64,000 nt of DNA from Stygiobacter sp. RIFOXYC2_FULL_38_25 (GTDB lineage: Bacteria > Bacteroidota > Ignavibacteria > Ignavibacteriales > Melioribacteraceae). Location of the stretch: assembly GCA_001803165.1 (NCBI GenBank), contig MHAZ01000012.1, positions 1-64,000 on the forward strand, in the 5' to 3' direction. This document shows, in pieces, positions 7,267-47,546 of the stretch. The position numbers were made by a program, and so were the translations under genes. The stretch's first letter is position 1. The number at the start of each line of letters is the position of its first letter. The notes below the pieces were generated by a model. That model was not told the DNA's origin. It made no database searches and was given only the letters and a program-made list of their open reading frames with translations.

Positions 7267-7324
7267 TGCCCATCCCTCCGAAGGAGTCCTTCGGACAACC
7301 CTTCCCAAAGGGAAGGGCTTTTTG
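7267..7324. repeat. Palindromic intergenic repeat (acccttcccaaagggaagg type)
   Basis: Two nested hairpins: ctccgaaggag...ccttcgg, and cccttcccaaagggaaggg followed by T residues. The reverse-complement version, with the same flanking words (gcccatcc / ggatgggc), is at 45898-45936, so this is a dispersed family. Here it may also act as a terminator or attenuator between thiS and the rhodanese gene. Confidence 0.6.
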
Positions 7325-41159: not shown

Positions 41160-42593
41160 ATGAAACTAAAAATCGCGCTACTCGTTCTGCTTTGCTTTTC
41201 TGTTGGAATGGCTCAGCAAAAAGATAAAAAGCAAAGTGCTGATAAAGGTAAATGGGAAGAGCTAAAAGAATATCCGAAACCAATTTCACCAATACAACCG
41301 GAATATCCGCAATTAGCAAAGCTTGCTGGAATTGAAGGTAAAGTTTATGTAGAAGCGCTAATTAGTGAAACCGGGAATGTTGTAGAAATAAAAAGTCTGA
41401 AAAGCGACCACGAGACTTTGATGATAGATGCCATTGAAGCAGTTCGCAGAACAAAATTCTCGCCCGGCATTTCTAAAGATGGCAAAAAAGTTAAAGCTTG
41501 GGTTGTTATACCGATTGTTTTTAAGCTCGAAGGAGATAAGAAAGAATTAAAAGATATAACTCCGATTGATAATTCAAAGGCAGACAATGAAGTTGAACTG
41601 GAGCCGGATATAAATACTTTTCAAGAAGTTGAAAAGTTACCTGAAATGATTGAGGCTGATAAACCAGTGTATCCGGAAGAAGCAAAAAGGAATAAGATAA
41701 CCGGAAAGACCTTTGTAAAAGTCCTTATTGATAAAAATGGAAATACCAAGAAGGCTGTTGTTATAAAAAGTGAGCACGAGCTATTTAACCAACCGGCAAT
41801 TGATGCGGCTATGAAATCTAAATTTACTCCGGCTATGCAAGGGGGAAATCCTATTGCTGTTTGGATTGTTTTACCGTACAGGTTTACTCTTGAAGGTGAA
41901 AAGAATAATGATGATGTCAGGTTTTCCGTGAAGGAACTTAACTCCGATAAGGAAGCAAAGAAGTTTTTCAAAGCTAACAGTAATATGAAGAGTGCGGTTG
42001 AAACTTTAGGAAATAAGAAAGCTAAATATGAGATAGAAAATGTAAAGACTTCTGTTATTTTTGGCGACGAATCCGCTTTAATTAAAATTAAAATGAAACA
42101 AGGTGAGTGGTATGTTTTTGCAGCCCGAAAGGGAAATAAGATATACGATTTTCAAAGCGATCAACTTGAGAAACTGCTAAAGTATGTCACAGATTATAAA
42201 AGCAAAGAAAAACAGTACAATGACTTTATAACTATTTCAATCAATTCAGATGATCCAACTTATCCGAAAGAAGCAATTGAAAAAGAATTAAGAGGCTCAG
42301 TTCTAGTAAAAGTTTACTTTGAAAAAGATAAGTTGGAGAAGGTCGAAACGTATGTAAGCAATAATCCAATTCTTGATAAAGCTGCTGAAGAAATAGTATG
42401 TAAAAACTTTTTGCCTATCTACGATGGAATAATTAAAGGAGATAGGATGGAAGGACTTAAGACTTTAGTAAAACAATCAGAAAAAGATCCTTCGAGCAGA
42501 GTTTCCTCAATAAGTTATCCGGATGGATTCACTTTAGTAACAGGACAGATTGTAAGAGTGAGTTTCATTCTCAATAAAACTCCCAAAGATTAA
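41160..42593 (+). CDS. Secreted protein with three TonB C-terminal-like domains
   Basis: 477 aa with signal peptide MKLKIALLVLLCFSVGMAQ. TonB_C modules at about 38-118 (PEYPQLAKLAGIEGKVYVEALI, ..AIEAVRRTKFSPGI), 150-235 (KPVYPEEAKRNKITGKTFVKVLI, ..AIDAAMKSKFTPAM) and a degenerate one at 355-425 (DPTYPKEAIEKELRGSVLVKVYF). No N-terminal membrane anchor or proline-rich linker, so it cannot be a standard energy transducer; it may bind receptors in the periplasm. Part of the sigma operon, with a terminator following. Confidence 0.82.
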   Translation: MKLKIALLVLLCFSVGMAQQKDKKQSADKGKWEELKEYPKPISPIQPEYPQLAKLAGIEGKVYVEALISETGNVVEIKSLKSDHETLMIDAIEAVRRTKFSPGISKDGKKVKAWVVIPIVFKLEGDKKELKDITPIDNSKADNEVELEPDINTFQEVEKLPEMIEADKPVYPEEAKRNKITGKTFVKVLIDKNGNTKKAVVIKSEHELFNQPAIDAAMKSKFTPAMQGGNPIAVWIVLPYRFTLEGEKNNDDVRFSVKELNSDKEAKKFFKANSNMKSAVETLGNKKAKYEIENVKTSVIFGDESALIKIKMKQGEWYVFAARKGNKIYDFQSDQLEKLLKYVTDYKSKEKQYNDFITISINSDDPTYPKEAIEKELRGSVLVKVYFEKDKLEKVETYVSNNPILDKAAEEIVCKNFLPIYDGIIKGDRMEGLKTLVKQSEKDPSSRVSSISYPDGFTLVTGQIVRVSFILNKTPKD

Positions 42594-42599
42594 TTTTCC

Positions 42600-42625
42600 A
42601 AGCGGACTCCGGTCCGCTTTTTTTA
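42600..42625 (+). terminator. Rho-independent terminator of the sigma/TonB operon
   Basis: Stem aagcggac / gtccgctt with loop tccg, followed by T7. It lies 7 nt past the stop of the three-module TonB-domain gene. Confidence 0.85.
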
Positions 42626-42703
42626 TGTGTTTTTGGATTGCTTCCTATCAATATGATAAATATGTTTGCCCACAGTTTTCTAAAACATAAAAACGAGGTA
42701 CAC

Positions 42704-43060
42704 ATGAAGCTAACAAAAAACATTTTCCTATTTGCGCTTGCGGTTCTAATTGGGGTTAGCAGTTTAAGTTTTGCACAGAAGAAAGGTGATAAATCACCAA
42801 TGCCGGTAGGTGGAATGGCGGCTGTAGCAAAAAAAGTAGTTTATCCGGATGAAATAAAGGGGAAAAATATAAAAGGTGATGTACAAGTAATGGTTACTGT
42901 AGATTCAACCGGAACCATTTTAGCAACAAGCATTTTCAAAGCATTACACCCGGCTTGCGATTCCGCGGCAATTAAAGCAGTACGCTCTGTAAAATTTAAA
43001 CCGGGCGAAAAAGCCGGTGTTAAAGCAAAGAAAAAAGTAATCATTCCTATTACGTTTTGA
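42704..43060 (+). CDS. Small secreted TonB C-terminal domain protein
   Basis: 118 aa from the ATG at 42704 (aacgaggtacac upstream). Signal peptide MKLTKNIFLFALAVLIGVSSLSFAQ (in part). One TonB_C module: VVYPDEIKGKNIKGDVQVMV, STGTILATSIFK, CDSAAIKAVRSVKFKPG. No anchor or linker. Similar single-domain proteins occur beside TonB genes in this phylum; role unknown. Confidence 0.82.
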   Translation: MKLTKNIFLFALAVLIGVSSLSFAQKKGDKSPMPVGGMAAVAKKVVYPDEIKGKNIKGDVQVMVTVDSTGTILATSIFKALHPACDSAAIKAVRSVKFKPGEKAGVKAKKKVIIPITF

Positions 43061-43068
43061 AACAAATG

Positions 43069-43146
43069 GAACGCAGATTGAACTGATAAAACTGATTACC
43101 ACTGATAAATCAGTTTTGATCCGTTTAATCTGTTTGATCTGCGTTC
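43069..43146. repeat. Long imperfect palindrome, GAACGCAGAT ends
   Basis: Ends gaacgcagat (43069-43078) and atctgcgttc (43137-43146); the interior (aactgataaaactgattacc / ttgatccgtttaatctg) is self-complementary. Same family and nearly the same length as 31378-31455. Confidence 0.7.
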
Positions 43147-43207
43147 TATTAGGTTGCCACTTGCATCCATCATGTCTAACTTTGCCTCTACTTAATTTCT
43201 TAACCAT

Positions 43208-43903
43208 GTGAATCAAAATACAAACCAAAATAACACCTACGGCGTATTTGAGCTAAAGCGGATTTACTCAAAGAATTATCTTATTGGAATAGTCGGCGCA
43301 ATAGTGCTTCATCTGTTTTTGATAGTTGCTTATCTAATCATTTCACCGCCCGAAGAAAAATCAAGAGATGCTGAGAAACTGCAAATTGTAACTTATGTAG
43401 AGCTTGGTCCGCCGCCATCTATAATTCCAAATGAACCGCCGCCTGGAGTTGTTGCAAGTAAACCGACTTTCGGGAATTTGAAAGCGGCTAAGAAAGGTGA
43501 AGAGACAAGTGAATTTGAAGTGCCGAAAAATTCTGCACCGGTTGGAGATGTAAAAGTTGTAGCGCCAAAGCCAGTTGAGAAAAAACCGGAACCGGTTGAT
43601 GAAACCTATTACGTTGCGGTTGATATGATGCCCGAACCGTTTGGCGGAATTGAAAAGATGCAGCAAAATGTAAATTATCCGGCTGAAGCAAAGAAAGAAG
43701 GAATAGTCGGAAAAGTATTGGTGAAAGCGTTTATAAATGAAAATGGGGAAGTAACGCGCGCTGAGATTGTTAAAGGACTCGGCTACGGCTGCGACGAAGA
43801 AGCACTCTGGGTAGTTAAGAGCACTCGCTTCCGCCCCGGAAAGAAAAACGGAAAGCCGATTAAAGTTCAGCTAACAATTCCGGTTTCATTCAAATCAAAT
43901 TAA
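43208..43903 (+). CDS. tonB: TonB family energy transducer
   Basis: 231 aa from GTG; an ATG 2 nt upstream is out of frame and stops at once. N-terminal membrane helix (LIGIVGAIVLHLFLIVAYLII, residues ~20-40), periplasmic linker rich in Pro/Lys/Glu (PPPGVVASKP, APKPVEKKPEPVDE), and a C-terminal TonB domain (VNYPAEAKKEGIVGKVLVKAFI, ..CDEEALWVVKSTRFRPGKKNG). Complete TonB layout. The next gene on the opposite strand is a TonB-dependent receptor that it could energise. ExbB/ExbD are not in the window. Confidence 0.9.
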   Translation: MNQNTNQNNTYGVFELKRIYSKNYLIGIVGAIVLHLFLIVAYLIISPPEEKSRDAEKLQIVTYVELGPPPSIIPNEPPPGVVASKPTFGNLKAAKKGEETSEFEVPKNSAPVGDVKVVAPKPVEKKPEPVDETYYVAVDMMPEPFGGIEKMQQNVNYPAEAKKEGIVGKVLVKAFINENGEVTRAEIVKGLGYGCDEEALWVVKSTRFRPGKKNGKPIKVQLTIPVSFKSN

Positions 43904-44017: not shown

Positions 44018-45838
44018 TTAGTCAGTTACAATTTTAAATTTTACTCCCGCGCTAATCCATCTTCCGGGAAGCGGCACTCCGGGAATATCAAAATAAGAAG
44101 TGTTAAAAAGATTTGTGGCGCGAAGAAACAAATCAAACATTTCTATTCGTGCCGAAATTTGCGAATCCACAATTAAATGTGAAGTAATGTTTTCCCTCTC
44201 TTCGTAACGAATCATCCAGTTCTGAGTTAATCCAAACGGAAGAACGTTTGTTAAACCAATAATCAATTGATGGCGCAAATGATCAAGCAAATATTTGGAT
44301 TCGTAGTTTCCCGTCTTTCTATCGGAAGAAAGATATGTATAGCTAAGGTTTATGCTCGTTATCGGGAATGATTCAATTATTCTGCTTAGTTGAAAATCAA
44401 AACTAACTTCGGCGCCGAGTGTTGATAAGTTAGAAACATTTTCCACACGCCAAGGATTGGTCGGTTTTGCGCGAACCCAATCAATCAAATCTTTTCCTTC
44501 TTTTAGAAAAATGCTTCCGCTTGTTCGTAAGAAATTTTGAGTGTGAGCAAATCCAAGTTCGTAGTTTGTAGTTTGTTCATACAACAGATTTGGATTGCCC
44601 ATATTTGCCGGACTTGCATAATAAAGTTCTGTAAATGTAGGAAGGCGAAACGCTTTGCCGACGGAGGCGAAAAGTTTTAGCTCGTCTGTAGCACTATAAC
44701 TAATATCAAAGCCGGGCCATACTTTCCAGCCGATGGAAGAATAGTTGTAAGCAAAAAGTCCCGCTGAAATTGAAAAATCTTTCACGGGATGAATCAACTG
44801 TTCAGCATAGAAACCATTTTTAGTCCTCACATGAATTCCAAGGTTAGAACTTCTTATTTCGTCTTTGCCAAATTCTCCACCAAAATATGTCGTTCCAAAT
44901 TGTGTGTTGAAAGAGGCTTGCAGCTCGGCACCGAATGATTCTGTCCTGTGTGTATTGTGATTCCAATCTTGACGGAGATAATCAAGATGGTAATCATCAA
45001 AATTATTGCGGTAATAAATTTTTGGAGAAAGCTGGAACTGACCAACCGGAATTTCCGCGGTTGCATTTGCAAATCGGGTAATAGTTCTTTCGAATTGGTT
45101 TGGAAAAAGATTAGAATAAAAACTATTAGCGCCAAAGTTTTTATCTATATATCCAAAAAAGAGATGAAATTGATTTTCGCCTAAAGAAAAATTTTGTCCC
45201 AGAGAAAAACTATTGGTTTCAAAATTAGTATTGTGCCGGTAGCCATCCGATTTCTTTTTCGCGTATGAAAAATTGTTGCCTAAAAAGCCAGTTTGAGCAG
45301 AACCGCTGAGGCTGATTTCGTATAATCTATTTTGTCCTCCCAAAGTGGAGAGTGCGAGTGAATTTCTCTTCTCTTTTTTTGTAATGATATTAACTGCGCC
45401 GCTGAAGGCATTTGCACCGAAGACGCGTGCGCCTTGCCCTTTTAAGACTTCAATGCGCTCAATGTTTTCTAGAGCAACCGGCAAGTTTAGATTATGATGC
45501 CCGGTTTGCGGGTCGCTTAATCTTACACCGTCTATCAAAACTAATGTTTGTTCAAACGAGCCGCCGCGAATTGAAATATCAACTTGAGCTCCTTCGGTTC
45601 CGCGCGCGCGTAAATCCACACCGCTTACAAACTTTAGCAAGTCTTGAATATTGTTTGCCGGAATATTCTTTATCTCATTGGCTGTTAAAACAGTGACGCT
45701 TCTAGAAAGGTCCGAAAATGAAATTGGAATTCTTCCCGAAGAGATAACAATTTCGTTCAGCTTATAAGTTTTTTCTTGAGCAACTAAAAATGGAGTGGTG
45801 AATAACAAAGTAAATAATGCAATAGAAAGAAATTTCAT
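44018..45838 (-). CDS. TonB-dependent receptor, BtuB-like
   Basis: 606 aa with signal peptide to FLVAQ. The TonB-box region is near ITVxx-like KLNEIVISSGR. The plug domain spans ~30-150 (SVTVLTANEIKNIPANNIQDLL, VDISIRGGSFEQTLVLIDGVRLSD, IERIEVLKGQGARVFGANAFSGAVNI), then a 22-strand barrel ending GVKFKIVTD. Resembles vitamin B12/siderophore receptors (BtuB/CirA group). The substrate is unknown and no cobalamin riboswitch is recognised upstream. An unusual structured element (45949-46084) lies 110 nt before its start. Confidence 0.9.
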   Translation of the reverse strand: MKFLSIALFTLLFTTPFLVAQEKTYKLNEIVISSGRIPISFSDLSRSVTVLTANEIKNIPANNIQDLLKFVSGVDLRARGTEGAQVDISIRGGSFEQTLVLIDGVRLSDPQTGHHNLNLPVALENIERIEVLKGQGARVFGANAFSGAVNIITKKEKRNSLALSTLGGQNRLYEISLSGSAQTGFLGNNFSYAKKKSDGYRHNTNFETNSFSLGQNFSLGENQFHLFFGYIDKNFGANSFYSNLFPNQFERTITRFANATAEIPVGQFQLSPKIYYRNNFDDYHLDYLRQDWNHNTHRTESFGAELQASFNTQFGTTYFGGEFGKDEIRSSNLGIHVRTKNGFYAEQLIHPVKDFSISAGLFAYNYSSIGWKVWPGFDISYSATDELKLFASVGKAFRLPTFTELYYASPANMGNPNLLYEQTTNYELGFAHTQNFLRTSGSIFLKEGKDLIDWVRAKPTNPWRVENVSNLSTLGAEVSFDFQLSRIIESFPITSINLSYTYLSSDRKTGNYESKYLLDHLRHQLIIGLTNVLPFGLTQNWMIRYEERENITSHLIVDSQISARIEMFDLFLRATNLFNTSYFDIPGVPLPGRWISAGVKFKIVTD

Positions 45839-45897
45839 TTTGAATCCTTTTTAGATGAACCGCAAAATTAATTGCTAATTCTCCCGACTGAATTTCG

Positions 45898-45936
45898 AAA
45901 GCCCTTCCCTTTGGGAAGGGTTGGGATGGGCTTTTA
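45898..45936. repeat. Palindromic repeat (cccttccctttgggaaggg)
   Basis: Perfect 19-nt hairpin cccttccctttgggaaggg plus flanking agcc / ggatgggct. It is the reverse complement of the unit at 7267-7324. On the minus strand (toward the receptor) it could work as an attenuator after the structured element. Confidence 0.6.
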
Positions 45937-45948
45937 TTTTAAAATGAA

Positions 45949-46084
45949 AAACTCTCTCAGCAGCTGATTATATAGAGTAACTTTGTGCGTGTTTCGAATT
46001 TAACCCGAAACGAGAGCGGCTGTTTAATCGCACAATGGCGATTGCCGCAACACAAAGCAACTCAAAGAGCTATTGAGAGAGTTT
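45949..46084. ncRNA. Candidate structured RNA (three-way junction), unassigned
   Basis: The sequence folds into a closed three-way junction. P1: 45949-45959 with 46074-46084 (11 bp). P1b: 45962-45965 with 46068-46071. P2: 45975-45978 with 46060-46063 and 45981-45987 with 46051-46057, around a 2x2 internal loop. Hairpin P3: 45991-45996/46006-46011 (9-nt loop). Hairpin P4: 46016-46020/46044-46048 and 46026-46031/46038-46043 with a 5-nt bulge and 6-nt loop. That is about 43 bp in 136 nt. Strand is unknown; the minus strand has a T5 run after P1 and faces the receptor gene. No TPP, cobalamin, purine, hammerhead, SRP or tmRNA consensus is seen. Confidence 0.45.
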
Positions 46085-46095
46085 CTAAATAATAG

Positions 46096-46187
46096 TTGTC
46101 ATATTGAGTCCCGATTTATGGGACGAAATATCTCTATGTAATTATATAGAGATTCTTTACCCACCGTTGGCGGGATCGGAATGACAA
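46096..46187. repeat. Interspersed repeat, TTGTCATATTGAGTC / GGAATGACAA ends
   Basis: Left ttgtcatattgagtcccg, right cgggatcggaatgacaa, with an inner inverted pair (atctctatgtaattatatagagat). Related to 43937-44006 and 38129-38200. It begins 4 nt past the rseP stop. Confidence 0.6.
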
Positions 46188-46190
46188 ATT

Positions 46191-47546
46191 TTACAGACTG
46201 ATTATATCCGAGTAAATTATAAATGCCATAAGCATAAGCAGTAAAACAAAACCTGTGTTCTGAATTGCAACTTTAATCTTTATTGGAATTTCCCGCTTGA
46301 TCAATCCTTCGATTAGAATTATCACAAAGTGTCCGCCATCCAAAACCGGGAATGGTAAAATGTTGATTATAGCCAAACTTAAACTTAGCATTGCGAGGAA
46401 ATACAAGAATGTAGATATGCCGGTATCGGCAGACTTTGCCGCATATTGAGCAATCTTAACCGGACCGCCAAATGCCTGGTTGAAAGCGAGCTTTCCGACT
46501 ACAACATTCTTTAGTGTGGATAAAGTTAGAACCGTGTACTGTCCAACGTTTACAATTGCTTGAGTGATCGAACCAAAAAATCCGTAAGTGCGTTGTTCTT
46601 TTATTCCGGTAAAAATTGTTCCATGTTTAATTCCAATCATTCCTTCTAGACTTGGTTTTACGGAAACGCGCACAGTATCGTTGCCGCGCAAAACTATTAC
46701 CGGAATGTGCTTGCTTTTATTTGTTTTAACAATTTCCTGAACTTCTTCCGCACTATGAACAAAAGAATTGTTCATGTAAATAATTTCATCACCCGGTTTA
46801 ATACCGGCATCTTGCGCCGGAGAATTTTTTAAGACTTCGCCAACTATTGTCTTTGCCGGATATGGATATAGAAAAAATTCTTTTTGCAATCCTTGATTGA
46901 TAATCTTGCGCGGTATTTTAATAGACAGCTTTTCGCCGGCACGTTCAAGCTCAACTTTAGCGTCTGCGGAAGAATTCCGGAACATCAAATTATCAACAAG
47001 TTCGTCCCAATCAGTAACTTTCTTTCCGTTCACAGAAAGTATTTTGTCTCGAGTTTGGAATCCCGCATCAGCGGCAATGCTTCCTTTTTCAACATTAGAA
47101 ATAGTTGTTGTTCTATAGACTTGCTTTCCCTGAAAGAAATTAATTCCCCAGAAAATTAGAACGGCGAGAGTAAGATTCATCATAACGCCGGCGGTAATAA
47201 CAAAAAGCTTTGCCGGTGTAGATTTAGCGCGGAACTCGTATGGCTTTGGTTCTTCGGCAGCAAACTTTGTATCAAAACTTTCGTCTACCATTCCGGCAAT
47301 TTTTACATAACCTCCAAGTGGTAAAAGACACAAACGGTAATCAGTGTGTCCTTGTCCATCCCAATCTTTAGCTAAATCGCCAAAAGTAAATCCATTTAAT
47401 TTATTCCAGCCAAGGAGGCGCTTGCCGAAACCGATAGCAAACACATCCACTCTCATTTTAGAAAGTTTGGCGGCGGCAAAATGTCCAAACTCATGAACGA
47501 AAACCAGAATGCCGATTGTTATTACGAAATAAACGATATAATCCAT
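46191..47546 (-). CDS. rseP: RIP metalloprotease RseP (site-2 protease)
   Basis: 451 aa. An intramembrane zinc protease that cleaves anti-sigma factors. HExxH motif in VFVHEFGHF (His18, Glu19, His22) in the first helix, a PDZ pair in the middle (NVEKGSIAADAGFQTRDKILSVNG near 150 and VLKNSPAQDAGIKPGDEIIYMN near 238, quoted in part), and NILPFPVLDGGHF with the third ligand near 400. It follows ispC by 15 bp, a frequent order. It could act on the putative anti-sigma factor encoded at 40678 (inference). Confidence 0.95.
   Translation of the reverse strand: MDYIVYFVITIGILVFVHEFGHFAAAKLSKMRVDVFAIGFGKRLLGWNKLNGFTFGDLAKDWDGQGHTDYRLCLLPLGGYVKIAGMVDESFDTKFAAEEPKPYEFRAKSTPAKLFVITAGVMMNLTLAVLIFWGINFFQGKQVYRTTTISNVEKGSIAADAGFQTRDKILSVNGKKVTDWDELVDNLMFRNSSADAKVELERAGEKLSIKIPRKIINQGLQKEFFLYPYPAKTIVGEVLKNSPAQDAGIKPGDEIIYMNNSFVHSAEEVQEIVKTNKSKHIPVIVLRGNDTVRVSVKPSLEGMIGIKHGTIFTGIKEQRTYGFFGSITQAIVNVGQYTVLTLSTLKNVVVGKLAFNQAFGGPVKIAQYAAKSADTGISTFLYFLAMLSLSLAIINILPFPVLDGGHFVIILIEGLIKREIPIKIKVAIQNTGFVLLLMLMAFIIYSDIISL

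Follow-up and report, generated by a model that had tools for sequence, protein, structure and literature searches.

boxA, the site of NusB/S10, is classically an rRNA signal, and the lambda nut (boxA-boxB), put, EAR and LoaP dlt leaders are processive antitermination RNAs. Demonstrations that Nus factors control ordinary mRNAs are, to our knowledge, few. A survey of gammaproteobacterial genomes (Baniulyte 2017; PMC5725501) considered GYTCTTTAANA motifs within 50 bp of gene starts and describes repression at suhB; boxA of this kind is bound by NusB-S10 (PMC5725501; PMC4807359). Among the papers listed for boxA/NusB, Bacteroidetes antitermination or processive antitermination, no description of a boxA leader ahead of a TonB- or btuB-type receptor was seen.

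In the present work, we describe such a leader in a 64,000-nt stretch of DNA from a Stygiobacter genome (the window), where a structured RNA precedes the gene for a TonB-dependent receptor (TBDR). Its likeness to lambda nut, put, EAR and the LoaP dlt leaders lies in a boxA followed by a stem, or in a structured RNA by which polymerase can read past terminators, antitermination being at this locus a proposal only. With the 5' UTR of E. coli suhB and other Nus-regulated mRNAs (PMC5725501) it has in common a boxA before a protein-coding gene outside rRNA, and Nus factors as the likely trans regulators. It differs from the cases of that survey in belonging to the Ignavibacteria, in its motif (GYTCTTTRA), in a distance of ~80-470 nt from the start codon, in serving a membrane receptor and, in one genus, in having boxA inside a terminator-like three-way junction.

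A structured RNA between rseP and a receptor gene

The element occupies positions 45949..46084 on the minus strand, downstream of rseP (46191..47546, minus strand; a RIP metalloprotease, TIGR00054 above cut-off) and upstream of a BtuB-like TBDR of 606 aa (44018..45838, minus strand; Pfam PF07715 and PF00593, best NCBIfam match TIGR01779, below its cut-off). It sits between rseP and a same-strand TBDR in 6/6 members of the genus (Melioribacteraceae, near Stygiobacter). Elsewhere in the window, at 41160-43903, three consecutive genes encode proteins with TonB C-terminal domains and run convergently with the receptor gene.

The minus strand of 45940-46095 folds with a minimum free energy (MFE) of -59.1 kcal/mol (z -7.7; 200 shuffles gave a mean of -30.2 and none was equally good), and the plus strand of the same stretch at -53.4 kcal/mol (z -6.7). 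A three-way junction of about 43 base pairs ahead of the receptor had been claimed by the first-pass annotation; its place, its 11-bp closing helix and its two hairpins were borne out by the MFE fold, which has 51 pairs, however, and consists of the 11-bp closing helix P1 with a further 5-bp segment, a helix P2 and the hairpins P3 and P4 at the junction. On the minus strand, the 5' strand of P1 (46070..46084; partner 45949-45963; 93% of alignment cells paired) is followed by boxA, GCTCTTTGA (46062..46070), a putative NusB/S10 site that lies partly in the P1-P2 internal loop and is identified by its column conservation and by the boxA of rRNA leaders and of other genera's TBDR leaders. Next come the 5' strand of P2, GAGTT.CTTTGTGT (46050..46063; 9/12 P2 pairs never vary), the hairpins P3 (46016..46048) and P4 (45991..46011), both placed by fold and alignment and both variable and without sequence conservation, and the 3' strand of P2, GCACAAAG..ACTC (45975..45988), which is supported by alignment, pairing and fold. 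The 3' strand of P1 and a U-rich tail (45940..45963) close the element in a terminator-like manner, its 3' end on the minus strand reading GTTTTTCATTTTA. This tail is present in 6/6 sequences of the genus alignment, and P1 with its tail has the layout of an intrinsic terminator (a stem, then a U tract) with ~100 nt enclosed within the stem; P1 is missing from the output of a terminator scan whose loop limit was 8. A sigma-70 scan of 45700-46700 placed no promoter inside the element and returned only four sites, all at 46188-46245, against 2.7 expected.

In its own 4.4-Mb genome the element is single-copy, the other five matches being only 14-19 nt long. A DNA search of 79 genomes of the family found it whole or in part in 6/6 genus members (in the five other than the present genome, two matches are full-length and three are of 40-44 nt) and elsewhere gave one 27-nt match. 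A covariance-model search, which the first-pass annotation had put forward as a check, was run on 164 genomes of the order with a model (R1) that was built from the genus members and recovers the full-length element in all of them. Nine genomes were matched, viz. the six genus members and three others (G031, G148 and G091); the matches of these three were considered as a wider distribution of the three-way junction and rejected, as they are short ordinary terminators. Each genus member additionally has a weak R1 match antisense to the element at this locus.

In the six-species alignment, 95% of the P1 and P2 cells are paired, and sliding the partners lowers this value to 35-60%; RNAalifold returns the same P1 and P2. 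Four pairs of P1 have changes on both sides, but the two species with changed P1 pairs agree with each other, so that this covariation may represent one event. Columns 13-36, which hold boxA and the 5' strand of P2, are invariant at 22/24 positions, compared with 2/53 in the P3/P4 columns, and hence what is conserved in the element is its boxA/P2 core rather than its hairpins. For the same six species, 8/100 fourfold sites of rseP are invariant, and identity at such sites is 28-47% in 14/15 species pairs and 65% in the closest pair. That the element is under selection is well supported. The claim of a conserved, covarying, minus-strand cis-RNA ahead of the receptor is upheld by its presence in 6/6 genus members and by the covariation of P1, and we regard the element as a real, selected, cis-acting RNA.

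The spacers around this RNA contain further repeats. A palindrome, CCAACCCTTCCCAAAGGGAAGGG, occurs in two copies in the window, at 45898-45936 and, with one mismatch, at 7295-7317, and looks like a dispersed repeat; the former copy (minus strand), a second hairpin between element and receptor, lies outside the conserved element and is absent from the spacers of the five relatives. Another palindrome, TTTGTCATTC...ATGACAA, is found between rseP and the element at 46100-46188; it recurs at the corresponding position in G068 and G066 and is absent from G069, G065 and G067. Both look like local inserts. In G068 the gap between element and receptor (L007 ~1660-1980) is filled with CTTTGCG and CGCAGAGACGC-like repeat units.

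boxA in the rRNA and receptor leaders of the family

The best-conserved stretch of the element holds boxA, and its sequence, GCTCTTTGA, differs from the genome's own rRNA boxA, GTTCTTTGA, by a single C/T difference that the published GYTCTTTAANA permits. Its GA, where the gammaproteobacterial consensus has AA, is a mismatch to that consensus and fits the genome's own rRNA. Upstream of the sole 16S gene found in this genome, TGTTCTTTGA occurs at a distance of ~80 nt, and it is seen again ~300 nt past the 16S end. Among 13 rRNA leaders of 12 family genomes (the present genome and 11 of the 30 genomes searched, the other 19 being without a 16S match), GTTCTTTGA is present in 9, GTTCTTT[CT]A in two others and GTTCTTAAA in the remaining two. 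GTTCTTTGA stands ~80-100 nt before GAGTTTGAT of 16S and is followed by ACTAAAG..CTTTAGT-like inverted repeats that were recognized by eye. One genome (G064) has two 16S leaders (L233 and L240) with different boxA sequences, GTTCTTAAAC and GTTCTTTGAA, and may be a mixed assembly. NusB (TIGR01951) scored above its cut-off in 7/7 genomes searched. The rRNA leaders of the family and the present element thus carry the same GTTCTTTGA-type boxA, whereas, among the leaders that were folded (those of TBDRs), its enclosure by P1 was seen in this genus alone.

In the rseP 3' flanks of other genera, boxA is found before the TBDR despite the absence of the three-way junction. The set of junctions that was compared comprises 87 loci, the family genomes contributing no locus where rseP was unmatched (G023 and G043) or represented by an N-terminal fragment only (G042 and G075). 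Strict GYTCTTTRA is present in 17/30 rseP-TBDR junctions of the family (6/6 in the genus and 11/24 in others) and in 1/54 rseP 3' flanks that lack a TBDR (56 flanks less G033 and G022, which are shorter than 300 nt; 11 of the 54 come from other families), and the comparison without the genus gives p 3e-6. In the lone TBDR-less flank with boxA (G159), the motif is flanked by the two arms of an ordinary terminator-like repeat. As the motif was noticed first and then tested, the cleaner figures are those from out-of-sample loci, which were fetched after it had been seen: strict boxA in 7/18 versus 0/38 (p 1.4e-4). Species within one genus are not independent, and counted per genus, with the present genus left out, boxA is found in 8/15 versus 1/29.

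When displaced orthologues of the receptor are included, strict boxA is present in 18/40 TBDR leaders of the family, with none in the antisense or the reversed sequences and a mean of 0.44 (maximum 3) in shuffles; relaxed GYTCTTTNA is present in 23/40, with 1 antisense, 1 reversed and a shuffle mean of 1.0 (maximum 4). A sense-strand boxA ahead of this gene is therefore found beyond chance, both in these leaders and out of sample. Strict boxA is missing from 22/40 of these leaders, and even GYTCTTTNA from 17/40. These counts leave out a 39-nt leader (L197) and that of G162, which belongs outside the family and has no strict boxA in its first 350 nt. Among the displaced orthologues by themselves, strict boxA is present in 1/10 (G073), and four more, all from genus g2, have GYTCTTT[CT]A. 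In other genera, boxA starts at most 25 nt from the rseP stop in 9/11 strict junctions. Strict boxA occurs in 17/23 gaps of at least 130 nt (in actual fact 139 nt or more) and in 0/7 shorter ones (55-121 nt), the cut-off having been chosen after the data were seen.

boxA as a general feature of TBDR genes was considered and rejected. Its strict form was found in 0/29 other TBDRs of the own genome (30 of 34 plug matches were available as loci, one of which is the present receptor; the first ATG in each open frame was assumed to be the start), and strict matches were likewise 0/40 in orthologue leaders outside the family (40 of 41 besides G162, with G317 left out because its gene start is near a contig end). 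GYTCTTTNA is found in 3/40 of the latter, one of them inside the gene, and in 1/40 antisense. Genome-wide, the motif count is 84 against 69 for the reversed control, with no clear enrichment.

Stems commonly follow boxA in these leaders. Over the 110 nt from boxA onward, the fold z is -3 or lower in 17/23 leaders with GYTCTTTNA and in 0/6 with GYTCTTT only. Leaders of g2 and g32 have a conserved internal loop of UCGGCUCGGCAG with CUGYUCAUG (in their alignment, MAFFT misplaces the boxA of G064, and one of the four g2 leaders, G002, was left out), those of g28, g6 and g22 have CTGCCCC behind boxA, and the remaining leaders have other stems, some of which begin 15-30 nt behind boxA. In five leaders from two genera (L191, L193, L195, L196 and L171), a common stem with the asymmetric internal loop UCGGCUCGGCAG/CUGYUCAUG lies behind a boxA-like site; these stems vary in sequence and may be an RNA motif of their own. 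Since the stems differ between genera, what is constant is boxA plus a stem, and the three-way junction with P1 is the version of the present genus. Judged by sequence and distribution, the identification of the element as a boxA leader is well supported.

Proposed control of the receptor and competing explanations

We propose that the TBDR mRNA has the element as its 5' leader and that control is exerted there in response to Nus factors. On leaving rseP, RNA polymerase would make boxA ahead of the remaining leader; an accessible boxA would be bound by NusB-S10 (together with NusA, NusG and partners), and the polymerase, modified by them, would then read through the long untranslated stretch that leads to the TBDR. 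In the present genus, a three-way junction encloses boxA, and its closing helix, P1, is followed by a U-rich tract; if boxA were not captured, P2 and P1 would close, boxA would be buried and P1 would serve as a terminator. As a whole, this proposal of a Nus-factor-responsive antitermination leader is our leading reading, though a tentative one. Nus binding, terminator activity of P1, antitermination in place of repression and the prevention of P1 closure by bound Nus factors are parts of it that we infer, and the controlling signal would be the availability of NusB/S10, i.e. the state of ribosome synthesis. It counts against antitermination that boxA represses in the mRNA cases suhB and C. koseri (PMC5725501). 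Antitermination in rrn operons, moreover, acts mainly against Rho and not against intrinsic terminators.

Predicted folds of growing prefixes keep boxA out of any long helix, with at most a weak 5-bp hairpin (-3.0 to -3.4 kcal/mol; it covers part of boxA in 3/6 species), up to the late closure of P2 and, after it, of P1; only in G069 does an 8-bp helix lie over part of boxA at 80 nt. AACUC and GAGUU can pair in 6/6 species to form a 5-bp hairpin whose loop holds boxA, and at 28 nt this hairpin ties with the weak boxA-pairing one in 3/6. In the full-length RNA, forcing boxA (columns 14-24) to be unpaired costs 12-15 kcal/mol in 6/6 species; with boxA kept open in the same model, P1 still forms its outer 11-13 pairs, and P2 an upper part of 8-9 pairs. 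In this model, the complete fold buries boxA but is by itself not an either-or switch, and because outer P1 forms with boxA open, Nus binding would need to block P1 sterically or by timing. A more specific and less probable form of the proposal, which we consider doubtful as it stands, is that of a conditional terminator sensing the state of ribosome synthesis, in which capture of boxA by NusB-S10 would stop P1 from closing by bulk or timing and receptor expression would follow free NusB/S10, the family keeping a boxA-plus-stem leader for one receptor and re-inventing the stem between genera.

The Nus factors recruited by boxA might instead repress the TBDR as at suhB, where a loop of RNA between boxA and polymerase would block access of ribosomes to the start and the message would be lost to Rho. 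Repression is established for E. coli suhB, and a boxA- and nusB-dependent repression of a Citrobacter koseri gene is also described in PMC5725501, which further discusses the lambda N case with nutL ~200 bp upstream. The distance from boxA to the TBDR start (~120-225 nt in 5/6 genus members and ~465 nt in G068) may be set beside that of nutL. However, the start of boxA close behind the rseP stop (within 25 nt in nine of eleven) and its occurrence in the longer gaps only suit the protection of untranslated RNA better, and, within the genus, the U-rich tract behind P1 speaks for control of transcription. We consider repression unlikely.

A ligand riboswitch (for cobalamin, a metal or another ligand) with the three-way junction as its aptamer would be in keeping with a conserved, structured leader ahead of a BtuB-like receptor and with the conserved internal loop that the leaders of two other genera have in common. 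The element is like the cobalamin riboswitch (Rfam RF00174) in its leader position before such a receptor; unlike it, it has no Rfam match at the cut-off, the entire window having given 0 such matches. In the 501-nt region of the element, Rfam gave nothing at E 1 or better (the best match, at E 1.3, is outside the element), and the loci of 20 relatives gave just two weak matches below the cut-off, to unrelated sRNA families. The structure is moreover limited to the genus while boxA reaches further, and P3 and P4 are not conserved. Among the unpaired bases of the element, those that are conserved belong mainly to boxA. The first-pass annotation had compared the locus to an aptamer with the hairpin at 45898-45936 as its expression platform, a comparison that found no support: no Rfam family reaches its cut-off, the inner hairpins belong to the least conserved parts and the core contains a boxA common to rRNA leaders. 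As an expression platform, that hairpin was rejected, its absence in relatives and its near copy marking it as an insert. A riboswitch is thus improbable, and since the leader carries the same boxA as the ribosomal RNA of the family, the receptor gene probably answers to factors of ribosome synthesis and not to a small-molecule riboswitch.

Still less probable is descent from a mobile or palindromic repeat, by which the palindromic repeats of Bacteroidota that are built of CTTTGTG units would have left a copy here, domesticated or inert, which serves as an ordinary strong terminator of rseP and owes its likeness to boxA to the repeat unit TCTTTGAG. Repeats such as L033 have AACTCT..GCTCTTTGAG..CTTTGTGTT in common with the 5' arm of the element, heptad-like repeats adjoin the element in G068, and R1 scores some CTTTGTG repeats (best E 3e-4), although these loci were preselected by pattern, so that descent from them is only a possibility. 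The pattern scan of genome contigs that supplied them returned 42 stretches, five of which are the genus members, the others including Bacteroidota CTTTGTG palindromes and a Kapaibacterium palindrome. The last of these, at 680-757 of L051 (a Candidatus Kapaibacterium contig), is near-perfect and long, with a fold of -111 kcal/mol. Against a repeat stand the single copy in the own genome, the one locus per genus member, the strong selection and the boxA of other genera without CTTTGTG arms. A mobile repeat of the own genome was rejected on the single copy, and the mobile palindrome that the earlier annotation had named as its main alternative is not borne out by one copy in 4.4 Mb and one locus per genus member; a search for a phage or plasmid origin gave no match at 1e-5. 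Least probable of all is that the element works chiefly as a stable small RNA derived from the 3' end of rseP, e.g. a sponge for NusB-S10, for although its compact, stable fold with a U tail and a boxA that could titrate NusB-S10 would suit such a role, only 9-10 nt separate the rseP stop from P1 in G067 and G065, which leaves no room for a promoter there, and boxA also precedes displaced TBDRs (5/10, strict in G073 and relaxed in four g2 species).

The preferred reading remains that of a Nus-factor-responsive antitermination leader. If it is true, the boxA that many genera of this family of Ignavibacteria retain ahead of one receptor, and that one genus surrounds with a terminator-like fold, would extend the control of mRNAs by Nus factors to another phylum and to functions of the cell envelope. 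It would also offer a compact and testable system for the question of when the Nus complex promotes expression and when it blocks it, which PMC5725501 lists among the open questions.
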